Assembly (NCBI GenBank): GCA_022768865.1
Contig: JALELH010000027.1
Location: forward strand, 1-64,000
DNA length: 64,000 nucleotides
Reading direction: 5' to 3'
Source: Spirochaetia bacterium
GTDB lineage: Bacteria > Spirochaetota > Spirochaetia > Treponematales > Treponemataceae
Made by a program: the position numbers and the translations under genes. The notes under the pieces were generated by a model. It ran no database searches and was not told the origin of the DNA. It saw only the letters and a list, made by a program, of their open reading frames with translations. Shown here in pieces: positions 8,692 to 54,492 of this stretch (position 1 is the first letter of the stretch; the number at the start of each line of letters is the position of its first letter).

Positions 8692-8727
8692 GTTTTAATT
8701 TAGTTGCTGTATTTTGGAGGAAATAAA

Positions 8728-9126
8728 ATGGGAAAAAACGAAACTAAAAGTTTTATTGTATCTGTGATTCTTACGATTGCCGTAGGATGTATGCTTGCCG
8801 TAAGCGGCATTTACGCATTGCAGGGAAAATCGGCAGACATGGCAGTCAAGGGATTAAGGTCAATTTTTGACGGCAATGCAGAAAACATCGTGGTCATTGT
8901 CTTTGGCGTTATTGAACTTGTTGCAGGTGTTTTTGTTGTGCTTAAATGCTTTGTCGGCAATCTGCCTTTCAGCAAAGTTCTTTCTTTGATTGTTATAATT
9001 GTCTGGCTTGCTGTAATTATTCTTTCAGATATTTTAGGCGGAATCGGAAAACCAGATTTCCTGGCCTGGCTTCTTCATCTTTCAAAAGACCTGATTATTT
9101 TCTGTGCTATTTTAATAACAAATTAG
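8728..9126 (+). CDS. hypothetical membrane protein
   Basis: SD TGGAGGAAATAAA before ATG 8728; four hydrophobic segments. Confidence 0.6.
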   Translation: MGKNETKSFIVSVILTIAVGCMLAVSGIYALQGKSADMAVKGLRSIFDGNAENIVVIVFGVIELVAGVFVVLKCFVGNLPFSKVLSLIVIIVWLAVIILSDILGGIGKPDFLAWLLHLSKDLIIFCAILITN

Positions 9127-9132
9127 CCTATA

Positions 9133-9206
9133 CACCAATTGCAGACGCAATTGGTGAGACGAAAGTTACAAAATACATCGGCTTCTAAAGAGCATTTGCT
9201 TTCGTC
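9133..9206 (+). repeat. R2 element copy 1 (74 bp, two hairpins)
   Basis: CACCAATTGC-AGAC-GCAATTGGTG hairpin, then GACGAAAG...CTTTCGTC. Confidence 0.8.
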
Positions 9207-9227
9207 CTAATTACAAATTAGCGTATA

Positions 9228-9301
9228 CAAGAATTGCGAATGCAATTCTTGCGGCGAAAGTTACGAAATATATCGGCCTCTAAAGGACATTTACTTTCGC
9301 C
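9228..9301 (+). repeat. R2 element copy 2 (74 bp, two hairpins)
   Basis: CAAGAATTGC-GAAT-GCAATTCTTG hairpin, then GGCGAAAGT...ACTTTCGCC. Confidence 0.8.
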
Positions 9302-9354: not shown

Positions 9355-9451
9355 ATAAACGCCGTAGGCAGGTTCAGGCATGAAAAAAAATCTGCACAAA
9401 CGAAGTGCGGAAGCCTTTTTTTCAGGACTGGTTCTGCCGAGAGGCGTTTAT
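9355..9451 (-). repeat. R1 element core (97-bp imperfect inverted repeat)
   Basis: ATAAACGCCGTAGGCAGGTTCAGGCATGAAAAAAAATCTGCACAAACG...CCTGAAAAA-type arm ending GGTTCTGCCGAGAGGCGTTTAT; reverse orientation of the copy at 11923. Confidence 0.85.
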
Positions 9452-11880: not shown

Positions 11881-12074
11881 TTAGTCCGAATGTCGGATAA
11901 AAAAATTATGGTTTTTATTCTAATAAACGCCTCTCGGCAGAACCAGGCCTGAAAAAAAGGCTTCCGCACTACGTTTGTGCAGATTTTTTTTCATTCCTGA
12001 ACCTGCCTACGGCGTTTATCTGCATTAAAAATCATTCTGTTTTGAAATATACTGTAACCCGACATTCGGCCTAA
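11881..12074 (+). repeat. R1 full-length element with outer inverted repeats (core 11923-12019)
   Basis: Outer IR TTAGTCCGAATGTCGGATAA / TAACCCGACATTCGGCCTAA; inner IR ATAAACGCC...GGCGTTTAT. Confidence 0.85.
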
Positions 12075-19835: not shown

Positions 19836-20035
19836 TATTAGGAAAATGTCGGGTAATGAAAAGTATTATCGGTTTTGTAAAAAACAAAATGCCTCTCGGC
19901 AGAACCAGCCCTGAAAAAAAGGCTTCCGCACTACGTTTGTGCAGATTTTTTTTCAGTTCTGAACCTGCCTACGGCGTTTGTCTTTAATAAAAAATTATTT
20001 TACTAATTGTTTTAAAACTCGACATTTACCTCATA
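19836..20035 (+). repeat. R1 full-length element with outer inverted repeats (core ~19884-19980)
   Basis: Outer IR TATTAGGAAAATGTCGGGT / ACTCGACATTTACCTCATA; core matches 11923-12019 over nearly its full length. Confidence 0.85.
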
Positions 20036-39838: not shown

Positions 39839-40020
39839 CTCGTGAGAGTGTATCATTCAACCTCACGAGGGTGTAAAGTATACCCTTACGAGAGTGTATC
39901 ATGCACCCTCACGAGGGTGTAAGGTACACCCTTACAGGAGTGTAATATACACCCTATTAGGGTGTAACATTCACCCTTATAAGAGTGTATCGTTCATTCT
40001 GCTAGGCTGAATCATTCATT
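39839..40020 (+). repeat. degenerate 23-bp tandem repeat array (about 8 units)
   Basis: Units such as CTCACGAGGGTGTAAAGTATACC / CTTACGAGAGTGTATCATGCACC / CTCACGAGGGTGTAAGGTACACC. Confidence 0.85.
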
Positions 40021-42755: not shown

Positions 42756-42770
42756 TTTGCTTTATAAAAA

Positions 42771-43006
42771 ATAGACGCCTCTCGGCAGAACCTCGGCGAA
42801 AGTAAATGCTCTTTAGAAGCCGAAACCTGCAGTTACTTTCGCCTCAAGAATTGCATCCGCAATTCTTGTAAAAGGTGTTTAGCAATCAAAAGGACTTTAA
42901 CGCACGACCTTTGTGCAGATTTTTTTTCATGCCTGAACCTGCCTACGGCATCTAGTTGCAATAAAAATTATATTTCAATTATTCTGAAGCCCGGCATTTT
43001 GCCTAT
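42771..43006 (+). repeat. composite element: R1 arms interrupted by an R2 copy (R2 at 42795-42868, minus orientation); right outer end at ~42986-43006
   Basis: ATAGACGCCTCTCGGCAGAACC | R2 | ...TTTGTGCAGATTTTTTTTCATGCCTGAACCTGCCTACGGC...GCCCGGCATTTTGCCTA. Confidence 0.8.
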
Positions 43007-52655: not shown

Positions 52656-52840
52656 ACCGGTATATTACAACATACCAGACCGGTATATTACAATATACCA
52701 GACCGGTATATTATAATATACCGATTCGGTATGTTACAGTATACCAAACCGGTATACTACCATATACCACATCGGTATACGACCGTATTCCATATCGGTA
52801 TACGACCATATACCAAATCGGTATACGACCATATACCGAT
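52656..52840 (+). repeat. 23-bp tandem repeat array of inverted-repeat units (about 8 units)
   Basis: GACCGGTATATTACAATATACCA / GACCGGTATATTATAATATACCG / ATTCGGTATGTTACAGTATACCA / ... / AATCGGTATACGACCATATACCG. Confidence 0.92.
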
Positions 52841-52953: not shown

Positions 52954-53058
52954 GACAGTAGTTTTCCCTTATTTACTTAACGCCCCTGGAGCATTCCGTG
53001 CAGCCGGTGACTATTACGTGCTTTTTGCCGTCTGTTTTGTTGAAAAGGCGTGCTATAA
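52954..53058 (+). repeat. 105-bp direct repeat, left copy
   Basis: GACAGTAGTTTTCCCTTATTTACTTAACGCC...AAGGCGTGCTATAA; two mismatches by eye vs 54051-54155. Confidence 0.92.
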
Positions 53059-53063
53059 AGTTT

Positions 53064-54050: not shown

Positions 54051-54155
54051 GACAGTAGTTTTCCCTTATTTACTTAACGCCTCTGGAGCATTCCGTGCAG
54101 CCGGTGACTATTACGTGCTTTTTGCCGTCTGTTTTGTTAAAAAGGCGTGCTATAA
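54051..54155 (+). repeat. 105-bp direct repeat, right copy (overlaps 3' end of CDS 54070-54492)
   Basis: See 52954-53058. Confidence 0.92.
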
Positions 54156-54492
54156 GGTGTCCGTCTTTAAGGGGAACATTTTTATGGCATACAGGGCATA
54201 TTCTTTTTAGGCCCGGTTCCGGCTTAGGGTAGCAGTGGGGGCAGCCGTTTATGGTGCAGAGCTGGTCCGGCACATTCATGGGCCTGTAAACACGGCTTAT
54301 CAGGTCTTCCCCCGGCAAAAGCATGGTGTTGCATAAAGGGCAGGAAACTAAGAGACCTTTTTTTGCGGCATCCTTTCTTTTCTGTTCCATCTTTCTGCGT
54401 TCTGCCTGGGTTTTGTTAGCCTGAAAGTTTATATAGAAGTTGAGCAGCCAGATTATAAAAAGCAGCACGATTGCGGCAATAATGTAAAACAT
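54070..54492 (-). CDS. hypothetical membrane-anchored protein with two CxxC zinc-ribbon-like pairs
   Basis: N-terminal TM; VSCPLCNTM, INGCPHCYP, RICPVCHKN, TGCTECSRG. Confidence 0.7.
   Translation of the reverse strand: MFYIIAAIVLLFIIWLLNFYINFQANKTQAERRKMEQKRKDAAKKGLLVSCPLCNTMLLPGEDLISRVYRPMNVPDQLCTINGCPHCYPKPEPGLKRICPVCHKNVPLKDGHLIARLFNKTDGKKHVIVTGCTECSRGVK

Follow-up and report, generated by a model that had tools for sequence, protein, structure and literature searches.

A ~91-bp double-hairpin repeat of Treponema that probably behaves as a non-autonomous mobile DNA element

The DNA analysed here, called the window throughout, is a 64-kb stretch of the 2.75-Mb draft genome of a Treponema strain (G000). 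In the window, an ORF at 8704-9126 is followed by two tandem copies of a short repeat and then by a member of a different repeat family, R1, while a third copy of the short repeat lies farther along on the minus strand. The ORF terminates inside the leader of copy 1, with the TAG at 9124-9126 as its stop codon. Orthologs of this upstream gene in nine relatives have a similar end point and no element downstream. A preliminary description of the locus had reported three exact 74-bp cores at 9133-9206, 9228-9301 and 42795-42868, each with a perfect 10-bp hairpin (hairpin 1) and a second pairing, and we found all of these features again in all three copies, the second pairing being a hairpin with a perfect stem (hairpin 2). 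It had also placed the tandem pair beside an R1 repeat, which holds for the R1 at 9355-9451; copy 3, however, lies inside an R1 rather than beside one.

In the core, a 10-bp hairpin whose loop has 4 bases is separated by a single base from an 8-9 bp hairpin that closes a loop of ~31-33 bases (Table 1); the element codes for nothing. Copy 1 has the stem CACCAATTGC/GCAATTGGTG in hairpin 1 and GACGAAAG/CTTTCGTC in hairpin 2; copies 2 and 3 both have CAAGAATTGC/GCAATTCTTG and GGCGAAAG/CTTTCGCC, respectively. Every hairpin 2 stem in the window is lengthened by one T-A or T-G pair. Fold z-scores of the window copies ranged from -5.5 to -7.0 with DNA parameters and were ~-4.3 with RNA parameters. When the 64-kb window was scanned mechanically for the two-hairpin architecture, only these three copies were returned, and three shuffles yielded none. 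The reported length of 74 bp describes the core but not the element, to which a leader of ~17 bases also belongs. Upstream conservation starts ~10 bases before AGCC (a block at positions -10 to -1, then AGCCTATA), and the leader consensus is TTTCTAAAC followed by AGCCTATA (~9 + 8 nt). With this leader the element measures ~91 bp, which accounts for the 95-bp spacing of the window pair. A fixed unpaired TTA opens the hairpin-2 loop, each of its bases being 93-99% conserved in this genome. The loop was 31-35 bases long in 71 copies from the same genome, a range that is partly restricted by the length filter with which they were chosen (78-84 nt), and CTA occurred in 64 of these 71 loops, compared to ~32 in shuffled loops.

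Table 1. Coordinates of the double-hairpin element and the R1 repeats discussed with it, in window positions.
Feature	Position	Strand	Remarks
Copy 1, leader	9116-9132	+	conserved upstream block + AGCCTATA; ~9 + 8 nt
Copy 1, hairpin 1, CACCAATTGC-AGAC-GCAATTGGTG	9133-9156	+	from sequence and folding
Copy 1, hairpin 2, GACGAAAGT ... GCTTTCGTC	9158-9206	+	loop (~31-33 nt) contains conserved TTA and CTA; element ends here on the right
Copy 2, leader	9211-9227	+	conserved upstream block
Copy 2, hairpin 1, CAAGAATTGC-GAAT-GCAATTCTTG	9228-9251	+	from sequence and folding
Copy 2, hairpin 2, GGCGAAAGT ... ACTTTCGCC	9253-9301	+	copy 2 is offset from copy 1 by 95 bp, as is usual for tandem copies of the family
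Copy 3, core	42795-42868	-	hairpin 2 42795-42843, hairpin 1 42845-42868, leader ~42869-42885
R1 repeat enclosing copy 3 (filled site)	42770-42955	-	ends approximate; sequence on either side of copy 3 matches intact R1 repeats across the junction
R1 repeat without element (empty site)	9355-9451	+	terminator-like inner hairpin 9391-9411

A BLAST search with copy 2 gave 41 matches in G000. Searching with a covariance model trained on 23 full copies gave 125 matches at E<=1, the weaker of which include the opposite-strand shadow of the palindrome, and ~95 at E<=1e-3; re-scoring on the stretches around the copies gave 95 at E<=1e-4, some of them partial. The genome search proposed in the preliminary description thus brought further copies to light, and the element is present in ~90-95 places in G000. 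Among 59 related genomes searched with the same model, G027 had 16 copies, G031 had 17, G024 had one weak match and the rest had none. Judging from identical loci, G027 appears to be Candidatus Treponema equi E4_MB2_46 and G031 Spirochaetales bacterium S22M_St_39. When the model was rebuilt from all 95 copies, one or two sibling elements were found in each of at least seven further genomes of the same genus; these share the two-hairpin plan, mostly have other stem sequences (e.g., CAAGTTTTGC/GCAAAACTTG), and in one genome form a tandem pair. One locus, between genes that we read from their translations as rluA-like and ribD-like, carries the element at the same position and in the same orientation in three species (L169, L170, and L108), which indicates that some copies are old and have been retained. 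Given that this is the only locus of the 95 copies common with the other two species, turnover must otherwise be high. The element was not matched in phage and plasmid collections, and its exact pattern was not found in viral contigs.

Comparisons of filled and empty sites, all made within this one draft genome from one strain of the species, revealed that the element has moved. On contig C48, an Rpn-family nuclease gene is interrupted by a copy at a point where its paralogs on C4, C37, C100, and C116 are uninterrupted; the paralog matches TIGR01784. The junctions read TACAAAAA(A)/TTTCTAGGG on the left and CTTTTGCC/GTTGCC on the right, and ~9 target bases (GAAAGCGAY) are missing. On C33 (L096), a segment of ~180 bp is duplicated, with one copy on each side of another Rpn-like gene, and in one of the segment copies 89 nt of a second element replace the 9 nt TGAAGATAT, so that the second element interrupts hairpin 2 of the first within its loop. 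In addition, ~8-13 bases are replaced in L123 relative to its intact paralog L131. Eight R1 repeats, including the one that holds window copy 3, contain the element and can be aligned across the junction with dozens that do not, with ~5-9 bases missing; these eight copies may represent one insertion that spread with R1 rather than eight independent events. The Rpn copies on C100 and C116 have one insertion in common, with a loss of ~110 bases, and were therefore left out of the independent events. These sites fix both ends of the element: on the left it begins with the 9-base leader and on the right it stops at the foot of hairpin 2, and independent insertions agree in where it ends. In the clearest cases ~9 target bases were lost and none were duplicated, a figure that rests on the two clean cases, while the others gave ~5-13. 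Although small hairpin repeats are common in bacteria, their movement has usually been inferred; here a single genome offers both filled and empty sites, which also reveal what becomes of the target.

Copies are arrayed in tandem every 92-98 bp, and they are nested in R1 repeats, in a further palindromic shell on C120 and in one another (L096). The C120 gene between two inverted copies raised the possibility that the element serves as the end of a composite transposon; a larger palindromic shell surrounds this gene, and the arrangement looks coincidental. It should be noted that a different hairpin, GCCGAAAG...CTTTCGGC, takes the place of the hairpin-2 loop in L108, L132, L137, L138, L140, L101, L143, and L144, sometimes to a depth of three levels. 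Elements lie in or near Rpn genes in 11 of 67 cases, compared to none of 30 R1 control loci. The Rpn-family nuclease was considered as a mobiliser and rejected, since Rpn copy number across the genus is out of step with that of the element (G027 has the element and two Rpn matches, whereas G005 has 26 Rpn matches and the element was not found in it), and we therefore read the Rpn genes as dispensable multi-copy targets. A subfamily with the hairpin 1 CTAGTTTTGC was observed only inside Rpn-family or associated multi-copy genes (L099, L123, L128, L129, L130, and L133), and three of its copies have a further upstream hairpin block in common.

The two hairpins have kept their shape while most of their letters changed. 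In the 95 copies, 97.8% of the stem cells are standard pairs, compared to 84.1% in column shuffles; two-sided changes occur at 16 of the 19 stem pairs, and two-sided cells number 191, compared to 40 in shuffles. On all five covariation measures the copies scored above each of 500 shuffles and all slid controls (the latter 32-52% paired), an excess that is not a probability, as kin sequences can beat shuffles without any structure. The alignment of the 95 copies was fitted to the covariance model and so leans towards structure; a MAFFT alignment of 23 copies that was not fitted to the model still gave 5 two-sided pairs, compared to 0.8, and RNAalifold by itself picked the same 19 pairs. The copies of the two other species (G027 and G031) independently gave the same picture. 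The compensatory change noticed among the three window copies is therefore borne out, and far more strongly than three copies could show; the stem changes in the further copies, checked with a covariance model as had been proposed, are compensatory as well. Because both hairpins survive the change of most letters, shape is what is kept, and across ~130 copies in three species it has outlasted sequence.

We consider the repeat to be a non-autonomous mobile DNA element of ~91 bp, with a probability of roughly 0.7. The preliminary description had attributed the compensatory changes to selection on a folded RNA or single-stranded DNA; the filled and empty sites favour the DNA half of that proposal, subject to the caveat on template switching given below, and the RNA half was not supported. 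In this interpretation, the unit that moves would comprise the leader TTTCTAAAC-AGCCTATA, the 10-bp hairpin, one base, and the 8-9 bp hairpin with its 31-35-base loop, fixed TTA and, usually, CTA. An enzyme acting in trans would recognise it as folded single-stranded DNA, for instance at a replication fork, and would make sequence-specific contacts with the conserved TTA and with AAAG/CTTT at the base of stem 2. Insertion would swap out ~9 target bases without duplicating any, and tandem copies would then come from local duplication. The mobilising enzyme in this genome is probably not a Y1 transposase. More tentatively, and with appreciable doubt, the element might represent a separate class of bacterial mobile DNA, in which a double DNA hairpin with species-specific stems on a common plan replaces ~9 target bases and is moved in trans by an enzyme other than a Y1/HUH enzyme. 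With the filled and empty sites and the copies in three species, two questions become testable, namely which enzyme moves gene-less hairpins where there is no RAYT, and whether the perfection of the hairpins is selected or made by replication errors.

The second question bears on an explanation that we regard as unlikely, in which unselected repeats spread by recombination and template switching, quasi-palindrome correction makes their palindromes perfect, and no protein recognises the fold. As template switching can make perfect palindromes, selection on folding does not follow from covariation alone. The large excess of two-sided over one-sided changes, the replacement rather than duplication of target sequence by insertions and the many nested and mosaic forms would all be expected of such repeats, as would the more perfect state of the short-loop hairpin 1 (99.4%) relative to hairpin 2 (96.0%). 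Hairpin 2, however, covaries over a loop of more than 30 bases that carries a conserved unpaired TTA, the element ends are constant at independent junctions, and other species have the two-hairpin plan with stem sequences of their own.

Movement of the element as a REP/BIME-type palindrome by a RAYT, i.e., a Y1 tyrosine transposase whose gene has been lost or is missing from the draft, appears to be still less likely. Y1 transposases move REPs, the element is likewise a small palindromic module found in tandem and nested, and the carrier G031 has four Y1 genes and five elements that lie between two GGGGTCTGTCCCC palindromes. Y1_Tnp (PF01797; IS200/IS605/RAYT) was, however, not found in G000 or G027, which for a draft that is 89.9% complete (G000) is no proof of absence, and the G031 Y1 genes examined have GGGGTCTGTCCCC, not the element, at their flanks. 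The element ends also lack a GTAG or CGTC tag, and the loss of ~9 target bases differs from IS200/IS605-type insertion, which is precise. The RAYT-like genes with GGGGTCTGTCCCC flanks are found on contigs C15, C17, C86, and C112 of G031 (L154-L156). Given that several G031 elements lie between two of these palindromes, they may travel with them in that genome.

Less likely again is a structured RNA (a small RNA, an mRNA 3' stabiliser, an RNase site or a terminator) that is selected in the transcript and has been copied round the genome. Strong covariation is what such an RNA would display, and the asymmetry of hairpin 2 allows a model strand to be defined. Among ~2,300 stem cells, which leave out the innermost pair of hairpin 2, G-T pairs outnumber A-C mismatches by 32 to 12, a modest excess that leans towards one strand folding as RNA and could reflect some such folding. 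Counts are, however, nearly equal for all arrangements of the nearest genes, divergent intergenic regions included (21 convergent, 19 ++, 19 -- and 19 divergent, with ORFs called by a simple script), so that orientation preference is absent; 11 copies overlap ORFs that are mostly short and probably spurious. Several copies sit between a terminator and the next promoter, others are inserted within Rpn-family genes, and neither stem is followed by a T-run. The sole intrinsic terminator called is in the neighbouring R1 (9391-9411), with none in the element. The earlier statement that the element matches no family holds for Rfam, where no match fell on it at the gathering score or even at E<=1. 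The lack of orientation preference, the rarity of G-T pairs, the lack of an Rfam match or T-run and the terminator-promoter positions thus leave the RNA reading unsupported.

Derivation from integron attC sites scattered from cassette arrays, which are likewise folded single-strand hairpin sites in tandem arrangement and for which the carrier G031 has an integrase, is close to refuted, as G000, G027, and G024 contain only Xer-like matches and no integron integrase above the cut-off, the stem foot has no RYYYAAC/GTTRRRY box pair and the copies are dispersed between ordinary genes. The occurrence of an integron integrase in a Treponema genome is an observation in its own right (G031:C130:279-1214, L238; 404.8 bits, above the NCBIfam cut-off).

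We found no published description of the element in Treponema in the literature covered, which was incomplete. The closest functional parallels are mitochondrial. The double-hairpin elements of Allomyces, as far as they are characterised in a later account (Paquin et al., 2000, cited in PMC7218506), are short, gene-less and optional, and merge and shuffle, as do the GC clusters of yeast mitochondria, for which an AG/ACT target duplication is putative (PMC4478555). The Treponema element resembles both in being short, gene-less, built of hairpins or palindromes and subject to merger, nesting, and shuffling of hairpin units; like a double-hairpin mobile element in the functional sense, it has two consecutive hairpins with compensatory changes and is optionally present at homologous sites. 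It differs in residing on a bacterial chromosome rather than in mitochondria and, relative to the GC clusters, in losing ~9 target bases, and the likeness is one of function, common descent not being expected.

With REP/BIME repeats the element shares high copy number, extragenic palindromes, complementary stem changes, grouping, and nesting. REPs are single hairpins of 20-40 bp that bear a GTAG or CGTC tag and are often accompanied by a RAYT (PMC3733652), whereas the element is ~91 bp with two independent hairpins and has no conserved GTAG or CGTC at either end (CGTC occurs only as a variant of the GACGAAAG stem); no cognate RAYT was found in the incomplete draft of G000 or in G027, those of G031 being flanked by another palindrome. 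BOX, RUP, and SPRITE of Streptococcus pneumoniae (PMC3049150) and the small mobile repeats of enterobacteria (PMC2229807) are likewise small, modular, intergenic and presumed to be non-autonomous mobile elements, but they differ in sequence and module plan, and those of the MITE type have terminal inverted repeats. No inverted repeat joins the two ends of the Treponema element, and its junctions record loss rather than duplication. It also resembles PATEs and the end hairpins of IS200/IS605 in having single-strand hairpins near its ends. For those elements a clean insertion next to a fixed tetranucleotide is expected; the Treponema element, in contrast, has differing flanks and lost target bases, and no Y1_Tnp was found in the genome.

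Other repeats were also observed in the window. R1 is found at 9355-9451, 11923-12019, 19887-19979 and 42770-42955; this genome contains 40 or more matches to it with 93-100% identity, and a first look yielded 110 candidates. R1 has an imperfect terminal inverted repeat (ATAAACGCC/GGCGTTTAT) and a terminator-like inner hairpin, and other Treponema genomes have its inner ~38 bp without the rest. Tandem arrays whose 23-bp unit is itself a short palindrome (e.g., GGTATATTACAATATACC and GAGGAAGCCTTCCTC) are located at 52656-52839 and 39844-40003 of the window and at 2247-2399 of L095; the unit differs from locus to locus while the period is constant. Finally, a 108-nt direct repeat, 97% identical, is found at 52954-53061 and 54051-54158, 1.1 kb apart.
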